64,000 bases of DNA from Robertmurraya sp. FSL R5-0851. GTDB lineage: Bacteria; Bacillota; Bacilli; Bacillales; Cytobacillaceae. A program made the translations under genes and the position numbers. Positions 1-18,815 of this stretch are shown here, one piece after another; position 1 is the stretch's first letter; each line of letters opens with the position of its first letter. Below the pieces are notes generated by a model. It saw only the letters and a program-made list of their open reading frames with translations. It had not been told where the DNA came from and ran no database searches. The DNA is taken from the NCBI RefSeq assembly GCF_038002965.1, contig NZ_JBBOOE010000001.1:4445001-4509000 (forward strand), written 5' to 3'.

Positions 1-127
1 CATTGGCTTTCGCAATCTGTTCTTTTAACTCTTTTAATTTTCCAGCATCAAGTCCTTCTGCCAATAAAGGGGATATCAGCTGAAAACGCTGCACTGCCAA
101 TTCTTCTGATTTCTTATGATTCCTCAT
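1..127 (-). CDS. Transposase N-terminus (IS element, cut by window edge)
   Basis: The reading frame starts at an ATG at 127, behind a GAGGAG ribosome site, and runs off the left edge. Only about 42 residues are present. They begin MRNHKKSEELAVQRFQ and continue into a Lys/Glu-rich helix. This resembles the N-terminal helix-turn-helix start of DDE-type integrase/transposase proteins that are commonly found beside DUF6431 proteins in Bacillus insertion sequences. The assignment rests on that pairing and on this short similarity; the catalytic domain lies outside the window. Confidence 0.6.
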   Translation of the reverse strand, partial: MRNHKKSEELAVQRFQLISPLLAEGLDAGKLKELKEQIAKAN

Positions 128-171
128 GATACACTCTCCTCTCTGTGTCTATCATGAGTGTAAATCAGGGG

Positions 172-630
172 TTATTGGACAATGAATGCAGAACGGGTAT
201 GTATCCAAAAATTAATATTTACAATGGGCCGGACAATTCTTGTCAGCCATCCATTGGCATCTCCTGCCAAGCGCCCTATCCTTTGAAGTGCAGTCCCTGA
301 ACTTTCGGACGAGAAATCCAGAGGGATGTTTCCTTGATTGGTTCTGATCATGATGGATGTTAAACACCCCAACCAATAATCCACAAATTCATGAATCCAG
401 CCATGCCATCTCGAAAGAGTAGAATCATCGGCTGGAACAGTATGGTCGGATGGATTCGAGAGAACGCTTTCAATACATTCAGCTTCATAGCGCTTATAAG
501 GGATTAATATATCCGGCAGTTCATGATGTATCGTACAGCAACAAGTGCACCTTAGTCTTCGGATGTTATAGGTCTTACTCTGCCCTGAATGATCAATAGA
601 TTTACGATTCTTAGATCCTATTACCAACAT
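172..630 (-). CDS. DUF6431-like protein, IS partner
   Basis: 152 residues beginning MLVIGSKNRKSI, followed by the stretch RRLRCTCCCTIHHELPD, a Cys/His-rich region that looks like one half of a zinc ribbon. This pattern (short C-rich domain, then IHHELPD, then a helical tail) fits DUF6431 proteins encoded just upstream of DDE transposases in Firmicute insertion sequences. The open frame extends upstream of the ATG through PSPCCGKD, which would supply the first zinc-binding pair, but I see no canonical start there. The 5' end may be truncated or use a rare start. The transposase fragment follows 45 bp downstream, so the two genes are probably co-transcribed. Function is unknown; a DNA-binding accessory role is an inference. 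Confidence 0.55.
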   Translation of the reverse strand: MLVIGSKNRKSIDHSGQSKTYNIRRLRCTCCCTIHHELPDILIPYKRYEAECIESVLSNPSDHTVPADDSTLSRWHGWIHEFVDYWLGCLTSIMIRTNQGNIPLDFSSESSGTALQRIGRLAGDANGWLTRIVRPIVNINFWIHTRSAFIVQ

Positions 631-745
631 GTCTTTCCCACAACATGGAGAAGGAATCCTCCCCGCACCTCTAACGAAAAACTCCAGTTAGATTGTTTTC
701 AATCAGCTTATAATCTGATACAATAACCATATACTTTTTGGTGGG

Positions 746-793
746 ACGTCTCCCGTATAACTGTTGGCGCAGTTATACATTATGGGAGTCGTC
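746..793. other. Long imperfect hairpin at the IS/zinc-ribbon junction
   Basis: GTATAACTG at 755-763 pairs perfectly with CAGTTATAC at 770-778 around a 6-base loop. An outer stem, GACGTCTCCC (746-755) against GGGAGTCGTC (784-793), pairs with one mismatch and a bulge. A T-rich run follows. It could be a terminator, or a terminal structure of the mobile element to its left. It overlaps the first codons of the long open frame that continues into the zinc-ribbon gene, which suggests those codons are not translated. Confidence 0.5.
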
Positions 794-878
794 TTTTCCT
801 TTCTCCGGAATATATTCATGGACATTATACTCGACCACTTCCGGACAGGCAATACCGTCAACTTTCGGTAATTTAAGA

Positions 879-1538
879 GTGTCAAAAACAGCATACATTG
901 ATGACCCTTCCCAGGCGAACTGTCATATTTGCGGGAAGGAACTCCCGAAAATCGAAACTCCATTTGTGCACCTGCCAAGGCCTGGCATCTTCTATATCTA
1001 TTCCGACTTTCAAGAAGGCCTATTCTATCCATCGTATGATGTAGATGAGAACAAGCGATTACTGTTTTGTCCGGTGTGTAAGAACCATGAGTTCAGTCCA
1101 GACGCAAAGCATTGCAAAATCTGTGGGACACCACTCATTAACCAGTGCCCTTCAGAACAAACCAATCTTAGCGGAGAATTCCGCTACTGTCCTTCTTGTG
1201 GCGATCAGACCGTATTTGAAAGTAGAGGGCTCTATGAATACCTAAAAGAAATAGAGATTCCCGATTTACTAGATTACGAGAATGGTAAATATGAAGATTA
1301 TATCGAGTACGAACATTGGGATTATATCATTGCTTCCGTATATGTTTGGGAACAAAACCAAGAGGCCTATTCATCCCTTTCCGGTACGAAAGCCATCCGG
1401 GATGATGACTCGCTTATCGTTTTTACAGCCGATTCAGCGCAGAAGCAGGAGATAGAAAAGCACGAAGATTTACTGAAAACTTGCATAAAGGAATATGGCT
1501 TTGCAGAAATCAATCAATTGGAGGTTTTAATACTATGA
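879..1538 (+). CDS. Zinc-ribbon protein, possibly 5'-truncated
   Basis: The protein carries three Cys clusters: CHICGKELP near its start, then CPVC with HCKICGTPL, then CPSCG. It continues into an acidic, Tyr-rich helical half with no recognised motif. The open frame extends back to a TTG at 738, but its first ~45 codons cover a long hairpin and have unusual composition. I therefore prefer a GTG at 879 or a gene whose start was lost when the neighbouring mobile element arrived. No clear ribosome site is visible at either position. The stop codon overlaps the next gene's ATG (ATGA), so the two are translationally coupled. The shared Cys pattern with the next gene suggests one small system. Function unknown; zinc binding is inferred from the Cys spacing. 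Confidence 0.55.
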   Translation: MSKTAYIDDPSQANCHICGKELPKIETPFVHLPRPGIFYIYSDFQEGLFYPSYDVDENKRLLFCPVCKNHEFSPDAKHCKICGTPLINQCPSEQTNLSGEFRYCPSCGDQTVFESRGLYEYLKEIEIPDLLDYENGKYEDYIEYEHWDYIIASVYVWEQNQEAYSSLSGTKAIRDDDSLIVFTADSAQKQEIEKHEDLLKTCIKEYGFAEINQLEVLIL

Positions 1539-1933
1539 TCTACGATGATGGAGTACAAGTTGATAAAAATATGCGTGTGGTAGAGTGCCCTCGTTGTGAA
1601 AATGAAGTGTTCAGTACAAACGCCGGCCACTGCAAGATTTGTGGAATATCTTTGTATAATGTTTGTGAAGGTGAACCCGAGTTTGACTCTAACGGATACC
1701 AAATCGATACAATCTATCATCAGAACCCCGGTGACGCTCGCTTTTGTGAATCCTGCGGCCGCCCTACTACCTTTAATAAAACAGGAATTCTCAAGCCGTG
1801 GGATGTTGTAAAAGAACAGGCATCTAGTCATCAGCAGTTTAATTCAAATGTCATTCCTATCGATCCGTTTGCTAACCAGCAGTACCAAACGTCACCTCCG
1901 TTACCTGTGAGTGATGATGACTTGCCATTCTGA
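1535..1933 (+). CDS. Zinc-ribbon protein with SSB-like C-terminal tip
   Basis: 132 residues starting at ATG 1535, ten bases after GGAGG. The N-terminal two thirds repeat the upstream gene's pattern: CPRC, then HCKICGISLYNVC, then FCESCGRP. The C-terminus is striking: DPFAN, a Gln/Pro linker, then SDDDLPF at the very end. From memory of that family, Bacillus SsbA ends with the same DPFAN...SDDDLPF arrangement, and this acidic Phe-ended tip is the docking peptide for RecG, RecQ, PriA, RecO and other repair proteins. The inference is that this protein either competes with SSB for its partners or recruits them to a zinc-ribbon target. It is co-translated with the upstream zinc-ribbon gene and sits beside an IS element, so an acquired defence or mobile role is possible but unproven. 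Confidence 0.7.
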   Translation: MIYDDGVQVDKNMRVVECPRCENEVFSTNAGHCKICGISLYNVCEGEPEFDSNGYQIDTIYHQNPGDARFCESCGRPTTFNKTGILKPWDVVKEQASSHQQFNSNVIPIDPFANQQYQTSPPLPVSDDDLPF

Positions 1934-2034: not shown

Positions 2035-3030
2035 CTATTCCTTATAATTCTTCTCGAATCGCCAAGCATCGCGGCACATTGCAATAATATCGCGTTTAGC
2101 GGTCCAGCCTAGTTCCCTCTTTGCTTTTGAAGCATCGGCATAGCATGAAGCGATATCCCCAGGTCTTCGATCCACGATTTCATAAGGGACTTCAATATCA
2201 TTAGCTTCTTCAAAAGCTTTCACTAACTCTAGTACACTAGTACCTTTTCCGGTTCCCAAGTTATAAACATGAACACCTTCAGTTAGATTTTCTAATGCAG
2301 CAACATGACCCTCAGCAAGATCCACTACATGAATATAATCACGAACTCCTGTGCCATCTACCGTAGGGTAATCATTTCCAAACACACGTAATTTCGCAAG
2401 TTTACCTTTTGCTACTTGAGTTACATATGGCATAAGATTATTAGGAATTCCGTTTGGTGCCTCACCTATTTGTCCGCTCTCATGGGCACCTACTGGATTG
2501 AAGTATCGTAGAATTGAAACTGAAAAAGAAGGATTTGCATTTGCTATATCAGTAAGAATTCGCTCACTCATGGCTTTTGTTTCACCATATGGATTTGTAG
2601 TTGGTAGTAGATCCACAGTCTCTACGAAAGGTACTTTATTATCTCCATACACGGTTGCTGATGAACTAAATACAAAACGATTTACACCATATTTCTTACA
2701 AGCTTTTGTAAGAACCATAGTGCTCACGATGTTATTGTAATAATATTCTAGTGGCTTTTCTACTGATTCGCCTACCGCTTTAAGACCAGCAAAATGAATA
2801 ACTCCATCAATCTTATAATTTCTGAAAATAATATCAACAGCTTCTGCATCTGTTACATCAATCTCGTAAAAATTAACTTCTTTATCAACTATATCCATGA
2901 TTTTCATAACAGTTTCACTCTTACTGTTAGAAAGATTATCAGCAATAATGACTGAATGGCCTGCTTCTAGTAGTGCAATACAAGTATGTGAACCTATATA
3001 TCCGGCACCACCTGTTACCAGTATGTTCAT
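2035..3030 (-). CDS. galE: UDP-glucose 4-epimerase (copy 1)
   Basis: 331 residues, the normal length for GalE. It interconverts UDP-glucose and UDP-galactose (or the GlcNAc/GalNAc pair) in the cytoplasm using bound NAD. The N-terminus has the Rossmann signature GGAGYIGSHT, followed by the short-chain dehydrogenase catalytic residues in FSSSATVYG and NPYGETK. The ribosome site is AAGGAG just before the ATG. This is the last gene of the minus-strand polysaccharide locus, after the flippase. It most likely supplies UDP-galactose or a related donor to the glycosyltransferases. A second galE with the same length and very similar protein lies at 25332-26321, in the same orientation. Confidence 0.93.
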   Translation of the reverse strand: MNILVTGGAGYIGSHTCIALLEAGHSVIIADNLSNSKSETVMKIMDIVDKEVNFYEIDVTDAEAVDIIFRNYKIDGVIHFAGLKAVGESVEKPLEYYYNNIVSTMVLTKACKKYGVNRFVFSSSATVYGDNKVPFVETVDLLPTTNPYGETKAMSERILTDIANANPSFSVSILRYFNPVGAHESGQIGEAPNGIPNNLMPYVTQVAKGKLAKLRVFGNDYPTVDGTGVRDYIHVVDLAEGHVAALENLTEGVHVYNLGTGKGTSVLELVKAFEEANDIEVPYEIVDRRPGDIASCYADASKAKRELGWTAKRDIIAMCRDAWRFEKNYKE

Positions 3031-8863: not shown

Positions 8864-10049
8864 TGCATATCCCAACACTTTCTATAAATTCTTCAAAAAA
8901 GGAAGTTCTTCTTTTATCAAGATAACTATTTTCATATACTTTAGCTTTTTCAAAACTTCGTAATGCTTCTTTTTTTAGAGTCTGCTTATCTATTTTCTTG
9001 AGCAGTTTACAAATTTCGCTGACACTACCGTTATTAAAAGTGAAATCTTCATTAACTAACTCAGGTATACCTCCAACTCGCGACCCAAGCACAGGACAAG
9101 CCCTACTCATCGCTTCTACTAATGCCCGTGGCAAACCTTCAGTTTTACTTGGTTGAATATACACATCTAAATTATCTAAATATTGGAATACATCTTCATG
9201 GGGAAGTGCTCCTAAAAATTTCACTTGATCAAGTACATCATATTTTTCTGCTATAGACTTTAGGTAACTGTTATCACCGCCTCCAGCAATGTGATACTCG
9301 AAGTTATAACCCTTCTTTTTTAACTTTGAAATAGCCTTAATGACATACTCTTGTCCCTTATATTTCACATTAATTGCTCCTAATGTTCCAATTATAATTG
9401 GTTGAAGATCTTTTAAGGTATTAACTTTTAGTATGCGATTTTGTAGCACTCTTTCATCCAATTCAGGCAATGTTACGTCTGAAACACCAATAGTTTTTCC
9501 ATCACACAAATATCTTTGCTGTAGAAATTCATTTGTTACATAGAGAGCATAGGGTGCACTTTTTAATGCTTTTTTCATCGACATATAATTTGAAAATGCT
9601 AATATTTTCCCCTTGTAGCTATGATTCCAAAGAGAGTCCCATGCACATCCTACCACCTCTACTAGGAAGGGTTTATTATATTTTTTTGCCAAATTTATGG
9701 TCATGACACTAATTTTATTAGGCAACCTCACAATTATATAATCACTTGCTTTTACCTCTTGCTCTATTTTTTTATATAAATTCAAACGTGTCTTTTTATT
9801 TAAGTAAGATTTTAATGATGAATGTAAGTCAGGAATTTCAATAAACTTTATCCTATCCTTATCGAGGAGTTCAAAATGATTGTTAGCAAACTCGTATTCA
9901 TATATTTTAGTATCTTTTCGACATATCATACTCATATTATCAAAAGTATTAAGGTATCTATCCCATATTTTCTGACTCCATCCGGTATAATAATTTCCTT
10001 CTTTATCTTCAAAAACCCTTAGAGACTCATACACAAACAGAAGTTTCAT
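8835..10049 (-). CDS. GT4 glycosyltransferase
   Basis: 404 residues. The N-terminal half is divergent (LLFVYESLRVFEDKEGNYY), but the C-terminal half is clearly GT4: IIGTLGAINVKYKGQEYVI, VKFLGALPHEDVFQYL, then IQPSKTEGLPRALVEAMSR, with the EGLPRALVEA donor-binding motif. It is cytoplasmic or membrane-associated and builds the lipid-linked repeat unit. It is encoded between two paralogous EpsF-like enzymes and overlaps the downstream gene. Sugar specificity is not predictable. Confidence 0.87.
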   Translation of the reverse strand: MKLLFVYESLRVFEDKEGNYYTGWSQKIWDRYLNTFDNMSMICRKDTKIYEYEFANNHFELLDKDRIKFIEIPDLHSSLKSYLNKKTRLNLYKKIEQEVKASDYIIVRLPNKISVMTINLAKKYNKPFLVEVVGCAWDSLWNHSYKGKILAFSNYMSMKKALKSAPYALYVTNEFLQQRYLCDGKTIGVSDVTLPELDERVLQNRILKVNTLKDLQPIIIGTLGAINVKYKGQEYVIKAISKLKKKGYNFEYHIAGGGDNSYLKSIAEKYDVLDQVKFLGALPHEDVFQYLDNLDVYIQPSKTEGLPRALVEAMSRACPVLGSRVGGIPELVNEDFTFNNGSVSEICKLLKKIDKQTLKKEALRSFEKAKVYENSYLDKRRTSFFEEFIESVGICNDKSITRCK

Positions 10050-18638: not shown

Positions 18639-18708
18639 ATAAAAACACCTCCATGTACTATTAAAATTAGGTTTTTCAAAATAAATAATTAGGGCATCTA
18701 ACCCCACC

Positions 18709-18815
18709 TCACACCATACCCATGACAACCAACGTGTCTAAGGCGTTTCCACCCACAGCATAGCCGAGTGCCCCCATTGATAACGGTAAGGAGACATCAC
18801 CAAACTTCTTATGAC
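18709..18815 (-). other. Unexplained leader-like segment before the prepilin gene
   Basis: Between the terminator after epsC and the prepilin gene lies a G/C-richer stretch. On the minus strand it can form a hairpin with a GAAA tetraloop (GGTG-GAAA-CGCC, 18742-18753). It also carries an open frame reading KKFGDVSLPLSMGALGYAVG and ending at 18709, without a start codon or ribosome site. It could be a structured RNA leader of the prepilin mRNA or a gene remnant. I could not match it to a known riboswitch. Confidence 0.3.

Follow-up and report, generated by a model that had tools for sequence, protein, structure and literature searches.

The closest described counterparts of the locus reported herein are ImmA of ICEBs1 and the phage ImmA/MpaR antirepressors, in which an M78 metallopeptidase likewise lies beside a cI-like repressor within a mobile element. 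The accessible text on MpaR presents it as a related antirepressor (PMC6872733), and DNA-damage-linked induction is known for proteins of this kind (accessible portions of PMC6872733 and PMC12637031). The latter source, in the part available, describes RecA-dependent, RecA-repressed and DprA-linked damage responses for ImmA-type prophages, treats the sensor as unsettled, and carries the suggestion that what activates the proteases is either ssDNA on its own or some other protein bound to it (PMC12637031). The nearest solved structures to the ImmA-zinc-ribbon proteins considered below, in both sequence and fold searches, are those of PprI/IrrE from Deinococcus and of CapP, which acts with CapH in CBASS regulation. 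Both PprI and CapP are reported to be activated by ssDNA and then to cleave repressors, and the accessible text makes no mention of an SSB tail on either (PMC10904395). A third point of reference is the C-terminus of SSB, which in Bacillus subtilis is described as a hub on which no fewer than 12 proteins converge and which efficient SOS induction requires; an ssb allele lacking the last 35 residues induces the SOS response poorly, and removal of the last 6 is already sufficient to abolish DnaE foci (PMC3000357).

The locus examined herein departs from each of these. Relative to the ICEBs1 and phage ImmA/MpaR kind it has additional zinc ribbons and an SSB-type tail, supplied in cis or in trans; unlike in PprI and CapP, a link to ssDNA would run at least partly through a mimic of the SSB tail; and it shares with the SSB C-terminus the terminal acidic-hydrophobic-Pro-Phe arrangement, whereas the OB fold is missing and the carrier is a set of zinc ribbons or a protease. 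Amongst phage protein families, phrog_19315, to which no function is assigned, spans a fused protease-ribbon protein, of which the protein described here represents a standalone subunit. A first-pass annotation of this DNA knew of no described system with such a layout, and none was found in the literature searched, which took in few subscription journals; an SSB-type tail on ImmA proteins was likewise not found described there, an absence that is weak evidence.

The window, a stretch of 64,000 nt from Robertmurraya sp. FSL R5-0851, harbours at positions 1535..1933 (+) a gene for a 132 aa protein, hereafter the tip protein. It comprises an N-terminal double zinc ribbon with CPRC, HCKICG and FCESCG clusters, a short helix, a low-confidence linker and an SSB-type C-terminal tip, and its C-terminus reads DPFANQQYQTSPPLPVSDDDLPF, with TGA following Phe132 at once. 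The reading frame, cysteine clusters, DPFAN...SDDDLPF ending and stop directly after Phe are all as first annotated. Acidic residues leading into a hydrophobic-Pro-Phe end (SDDDLPF plus stop) constitute a tip of the SSB type; the DDDLPF element occupies 1913..1930 (+), with the stop codon adjoining Phe, and a DPFAN motif at 1862..1876 (+) is common to the tip protein and the tail of host SsbA (DPFANDGGQIDISDDDLPF). The host encodes three SSB-domain proteins, of which the SsbA-like one ends EDPFANDGGQIDISDDDLPF, and by comparison of the predicted tails the likeness of the tip protein to host SsbA spans both the DPFAN motif and the tip. The remainder of the protein is of a different nature. Pfam returned sub-threshold matches, mostly to zinc ribbons, amongst which the OB-fold domain PF00436 was absent up to an E-value of 1; the predicted product is not an SSB. 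There was no NCBIfam match above a cut-off, no defence family was matched in PADLOC, and Foldseek gave no significant fold match for the model. The tip protein does match positions 244-337 of phrog_19315 (348 aa; 1.3e-18), this being the ribbon part only.

A Shine-Dalgarno-like GGAGG lies at 1520..1524 (+), and the tip gene starts with the ATG at 1535, which runs into the stop codon of the preceding ORF (ATGA), such that translational coupling of the tip gene to this ORF is plausible. The coupled neighbour, described at first annotation as another zinc-ribbon protein, is the C-terminal half of an ImmA protein split by an IS. The upstream ORF (738-1538) begins within the IS, and from codon 891 onwards it can be aligned to ImmA/IrrE-type proteins over their C-terminal half, the comparison using the intact ImmA of two loci (L025 and L077) and a 5′-incomplete one from a third (L026). 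This half (891..1538, +) harbours zinc ribbons and a further C-terminal domain, with no peptidase motif. The right part of the IS occupies 1..890 of the window (unstranded) and the whole element, of 3,255 bp, runs from -2364 to 890 in window coordinates, splitting immA. A 6-bp target duplication, GCATAC, has its right copy at 891..896 (+) and its left copy just before the IS (genome C1 4442630-4442635), and, as read from the coordinates, the frame of immA is the same on either side. The IS encodes a TniB-like AAA ATPase, an rve/Mu-transpos_C transposase and a DUF6431 protein (172..630, -; PF20020, E 3.4e-28); five identical copies, that in the window included, and five diverged ones are present in the genome. 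The idea that the module is anti-phage cargo of the IS was rejected on the position of the element inside immA, the duplication, the retained frame and the four identical copies elsewhere. By its placement the IS is an insertion in the partner gene, and interrupts the putative immunity module instead of carrying it.

To the left of the IS lies the N-terminal half of immA, which contains HEIGH, matches PF06114 (Peptidase_M78; 35.8 bits, cut-off 22), and matches positions 7-186 of phrog_19315 at 5.8e-29. Directly upstream, and overlapping immA, is the repressor gene, encoding a 135-aa HTH_31/HTH_3 protein. Amongst the defence families of PADLOC, the protease half is matched best by capP (3.6e-13), and the repressor by HTH_VI (5.1e-11) with capH (7.5e-11) close behind. 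These two partners of the tip protein thus resemble CapP/CapH, regulators of defence operons. The wider region contains the M78 protease, the HTH repressor, phage replication genes and recombinases, with the tip gene at the right end of the prophage. A Peptidase_M78 domain with HExxH, an adjacent cI/Xre-type repressor and location in a mobile element are therefore all present, and to judge from gene content and order the tip gene encodes, as a subunit of its own, the zinc ribbons and tip of an immunity module that a prophage builds from repressor and ImmA. It is, on the same reading, the last gene of the predicted immunity operon, whose protease partner is broken here; as immA is split by the IS, the module is broken in this genome. 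The first-pass annotation had expected a mobile anti-phage or regulatory module. A mobile regulatory module it appears to be, but a direct anti-phage role is unsupported: since the setting is the prophage's own immunity region, a part in prophage induction is more likely than direct action against phages.

Divergent from the immunity genes, on their left, are genes for DUF2800, an Enc34-type ssDNA-binding protein and a family A DNA polymerase, with structural-looking genes and large recombinases (named by eye) further left. The phage's own Enc34-type protein (L022 7842-8387, -) ends DDDEDILG and has no SSB tip. This lack, together with the tips borne by DUF669 proteins of other phages, would fit a tip that serves phage replication after induction by recruiting host primosome or repair proteins, the zinc ribbons then having an SSB-like role. 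Such a function is rather improbable, as the gene sits in the repressor operon and diverges from the replication genes, so that expression in the lysogen would be expected.

Homologues of the tip protein numbered 10 in a one-sequence search and 80 in a profile search, whose profile (A1) contained tips. A PF end was found in 61 of the 80, with at least two D/E amongst the preceding six residues in 60 of these; shuffled tails reached an acidic PF end in 0.4 % of cases. When the window protein and all 80 homologues were aligned with every row kept, P131 and F132 were conserved at 83 and 88 %, respectively, the zinc cysteines at 94-99 %, and linker columns 98-124 at ≤19 %. A further alignment (A5) holds 54 of the 80 homologues and just 3 of the 19 lacking PF, so that the tip appears better conserved in it (98 and 100 %) than it is. 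The 19 sequences without a PF end include some that look truncated or frameshifted, two in which LPF is followed by a further residue, and genuine non-bearers. An acidic Phe-ended tip is kept by the majority of homologues, against the absence that the first-pass annotation had named as a ground for refutation, and the paired zinc-ribbon neighbour recurs amongst homologous loci. Between the window copy and its near relatives L004 and L005, dN/dS is about 0.07 and 0.21, respectively, on few changes. Other standalone zinc-ribbon proteins with tips include one ending ISDEDLPF that adjoins an integrase-like gene (L156 380-739) and one with the tip YIDEIPF (L064 1474-1767), for which no ImmA was seen within 3.2 kb.

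Many relatives have this ribbon and tip, by predicted domain order, as the C-terminus of the ImmA protease proper. In phages and phage-like plasmids the ribbon module closes ImmA/IrrE proteins at their C-terminus, and several of these are encoded between a repressor and an integrase. Tips terminate the proteins of a B. glycinifermentans plasmid (...LTLSDELPF), Latilactobacillus phage TMW 1.706 P1 (...ETEALPF) and Bacillus phage SDFMU_Pfc (...EDPDFPF); a C. spongiae plasmid has PF with little acid (...QFMNSPF), and the full tip is missing from Streptococcus phages Javan249 (...FDEMTF) and Javan235 (...EKLS). Scanning of viral contigs with a ribbon-only pattern, confirmed by tblastn with a tip-bearing first row, yielded 70 loci; in 65 of them the ribbon ORF also encoded HExxH, and each of these ORFs had three or more CxxC. 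Amongst these 65 ImmA-zinc-ribbon proteins, 43 have a PF end and 36 the clearly acidic form; at 50 % identity the tip is represented in 17 of 31 clusters, and 13 of the 31 have no PF member. About six of the 22 proteins without PF carry near-tips (EEEIQF, EEEGLPFI, EYEGLPL, KDNDLMF, EMEELLF and IANDTF), and an adjoining tip gene accounts for the missing end in just one of the 22. With 22 of 65 proteins lacking PF and just one of these adjoined by a tip gene, some modules do without the tip, which is thus not essential in all of them.

Within bacterial genomes, 15 of 19 complete ImmA-zinc-ribbon ORFs end in PF, a count that includes three near-copies from one genus (L073-L075), two proteins from another single genus (L051 and L052) and one without nearby acid (L058). 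As for the other four, a tip gene adjoins ImmA in L018 and L080, none lies downstream in L077, and the fourth is L081. The 19 leave out the split copy of the window, standalone genes, short non-ImmA ribbon proteins, stop-bearing copies and copies interrupted by a contig end. The ImmA upstream of a separate tip gene is intact in the split loci L018, L023, L025 and L155, the tip protein of L025 ending in the weakly acidic FLNNPPF; the related locus L026 is cut by a contig end. A search with phrog_19315, covering 12 of 398 genomes that overlap those already searched, recovered seven complete ribbon-bearing ImmA, five with the tip in cis, one in trans and one with none, and three ImmA without ribbons (one with a stop), none of which has a tip; the remaining two are the split copy of the window and one cut by a contig end. 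A close ImmA relative was present in just 4 of 50,697 phage records (E 1e-10). At one locus (L031, L216) two tip bearers occur in succession: the ImmA has the terminus SEWDIPF, and the zinc-ribbon protein after it, of 184 aa, has GDDDIPF. The tip gene of Cytobacillus sp. NCCP-133 (L004) had no ImmA beside it; what adjoins it, at about 9850-10000, is the apparent start of a 16S rRNA with the end of an IS, probably an assembly join. Its status as an ImmA-free orphan is doubtful, as this upstream rRNA/IS junction may be such a join.

The tip is not shared by ImmA proteins at large. Plain Peptidase_M78 proteins were drawn from the best 70 of 105 Peptidase_M78 matches listed, of which 65 gave an HExxH-like ORF (5 of 40 loci in one batch gave none and were dropped), and neither a PF end nor ribbons occurred in any of the 65. 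This control leans towards strong M78 matches, ribbon-bearing ImmA matching the Pfam model more weakly, and the N-terminal half from this genome stands at row 83, outside the 70. A tip common to all ImmA proteins is rejected on these figures. Of the other ORFs in phage loci, 948 reached 80 aa, and ten of these had an acidic PF end, one being a missed family member. The remaining nine comprise three SSB and three DUF669 proteins by eye, one DUF669 by annotation, and one DUF669 and one RecT by Pfam, so that all nine are apparently ssDNA-binding or annealing proteins. The rarity of acidic PF in these background ORFs, with the 61 of 80 homologues set against 0.4 % of shuffled tails and with the conservation of P131 and F132, leads to rejection of a chance origin for the tip. 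Phage DUF669-type proteins with an SSB-type tip (e.g. ISDDDVPF) are encoded at L044 2828-3265 and in L179, L180, L182 and L183, and the RecT of L042 has the C-terminus DTPPF.

In a tree of the 65 viral ImmA, built with the last 25 residues removed, the PF end requires 14 changes, at least 12 of which are forced by starred branches, and proteins that have it fall to either side of the midpoint root. The end would therefore be old and often lost, or else regained. So frequent a turnover, together with its absence from 19 of 80 and 22 of 65 relatives, is what a relic would show, or a sequence with a purpose unrelated to SSB, such as a degron or another form of C-terminal binding. The probability of this is nonetheless low, as the tip persists on both sides of the midpoint-rooted tree and, in the same loci, is otherwise restricted to the apparent ssDNA-binding and annealing proteins.

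An AlphaFold model of a fused ImmA (from a 40-row alignment) has a mean pLDDT of 88, with the blocks of the last 21 residues at 44-50. HExxH and most zinc cysteines are invariant in the 40 rows, and E131 and E133 exceed 90 %; 34 rows of this alignment (A4) are tip-bearing by choice, and A3 was built from tip-bearing proteins only. The tail of SSB is thought to fold back on its own OB fold and to be displaced from there by ssDNA. A comparable autoinhibitory lid may be envisaged here, wherein the acidic tail folds onto the ribbons or the peptidase at a basic face that binds ssDNA, and is released when ssDNA takes its place; no host partner would be involved. An acidic tail on relatives of ssDNA-activated proteases would suit such a lid (accessible text of PMC10904395), as would the pLDDT of the last blocks of the tip-protein model, somewhat higher (67-72) than that of its linker (50-53). 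A lid would, however, need acid and not a terminal Pro-Phe, yet P and F are the most conserved residues of the tail and the acidic columns are more variable; moreover, the tail of the ImmA model is of low confidence throughout, and a tail in a separate subunit (the window, L018, L023 and L155) fits less well. We consider the lid unlikely.

Resemblance to the host SSB extends, in a few cases, beyond the tip. In genome G264 the SSB tail contains DGKPIDISDDDLPF and that of ImmA DGKPIEISKDEMPF (more fully, DDPFADDGKPIDISDDDLPF and DPMEENDGKPIEISKDEMPF); in G344 the pair is DGKPIDISDDDLPF and DGKPIDIDYDDLPF (more fully, DPFADDGKPIDISDDDLPF and RERDGKPIDIDYDDLPF); and in G478 the host SSB has DDPFAQEGNTIDISDDDLPF and ImmA DDPFTPSNVVNIGDDDLPF. 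The two tails agree in the last residues only in G302, G759 and G894, and the comparison of host SSB with fused ImmA leaves out G404 and G700. The ImmA proteins with the most SSB-like tails, those of G264 and G378 (L051 and L052), are above the M78 cut-off and keep the ribbons, with no match to HExxH. A [DN]PF motif occurs in the tails of 11 of 80 standalone proteins, 7 of 65 fused ones and 4 of 935 background ORFs, and the GKPIxI-type motif is rare throughout (1/65 fused, 0/80 standalone and 1/935 background). As judged by these alignments, the tail is a copy of the SSB C-terminal tip, accompanied in few cases by the DPFA or DGKPIDIS that precedes it in the host SSB.

SSB is abundant in the cell. 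A tip protein acting as a decoy, competing with SSB for its partners and so blocking RecA loading and SOS, or recombination directed against the phage, would thus need high expression; this is the capture or block of partners that the first-pass annotation had put forward. Low expression is expected of the commoner form, in which the tail is fused to a repressor-type protease in a lysogeny operon, and a decoy is an improbable reading on that ground. It does draw on the mimicry of SSB tails from the same genome, and on the standalone gene, which is intact beside a broken ImmA in the window and has no ImmA beside it in NCCP-133, with dN/dS about 0.07 between these two copies; the upstream context of the latter copy, however, is the junction that resembles an assembly join.

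The preferred explanation is that host SSB partners serve as docking sites to which the tail brings the protease, so that cleavage of the repressor becomes coupled to ssDNA or fork damage, a proposal that we regard as evenly poised. The flexible tail would enter the SSB-tip pocket of at least one host SSB partner, candidates in B. subtilis being RecO, RecG, PriA, RecQ, RecJ, DnaE and others; SSB itself is not an expected partner, because the tail copies SSB. The protease would then ride with these partners to stalled forks and exposed ssDNA, where activation of the M78 domain, for which ssDNA may be the trigger just as for PprI and CapP, would lead to cleavage of the repressor, upon which the prophage would leave. 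A tip that is supplied now by the protease, now by a neighbouring subunit, points to joint action of protease and tip subunit. In favour of docking stand the PF ends of standalone and fused relatives and their absence from plain M78 proteins, the apparent ssDNA-binding or annealing nature of the nine other tip bearers, the matches to host SSB tails, the invariant HExxH, the low-confidence tail of the ImmA model, the kinship with CapP and PprI, and the effects of ssb truncation in B. subtilis. Points against docking are the 22 of 65 proteins without PF, the 13 of 31 clusters that have no PF member, the approximately 14 gains or losses of the PF end and the HExxH-less proteins of G264 and G378. 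ICEBs1 ImmA, which is small and damage-responsive and is not known to bear such a tail, also counts against it. As a broader and more tentative suggestion, one that falls somewhat short of probable, a large class of Bacillota prophages may wire the lysogeny switch into the host SSB interactome via a tail mimic on the protease or its subunit, docking being the step at which ImmA-type systems read fork damage. The SSB-tail mimic is in this respect a concrete candidate for the unsettled damage sensing by ImmA-type proteases, and, if true, would be an unusual mimicry of the host SSB tail, borne by a regulator instead of a DNA-binding protein.

Beyond the tip gene, the host flank begins with a galE-like gene for an NAD-dependent epimerase (2035..3030, -), and a like flank adjoins the tip gene in L023. 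No attachment-site repeat of at least 13 bp was found between 1881-2140 and the left side. A second, related prophage lies directly to the left (G000 C1 4371602-4402590), and large recombinase-like genes, identified by eye, stand beside both. Further into the window an epsC-type RNA is located at 18691-18802 (-), the sole Rfam match therein (RF01735, 100.5 bits), and genes 2-9 kb from this element look, by eye, like those of polysaccharide synthesis.
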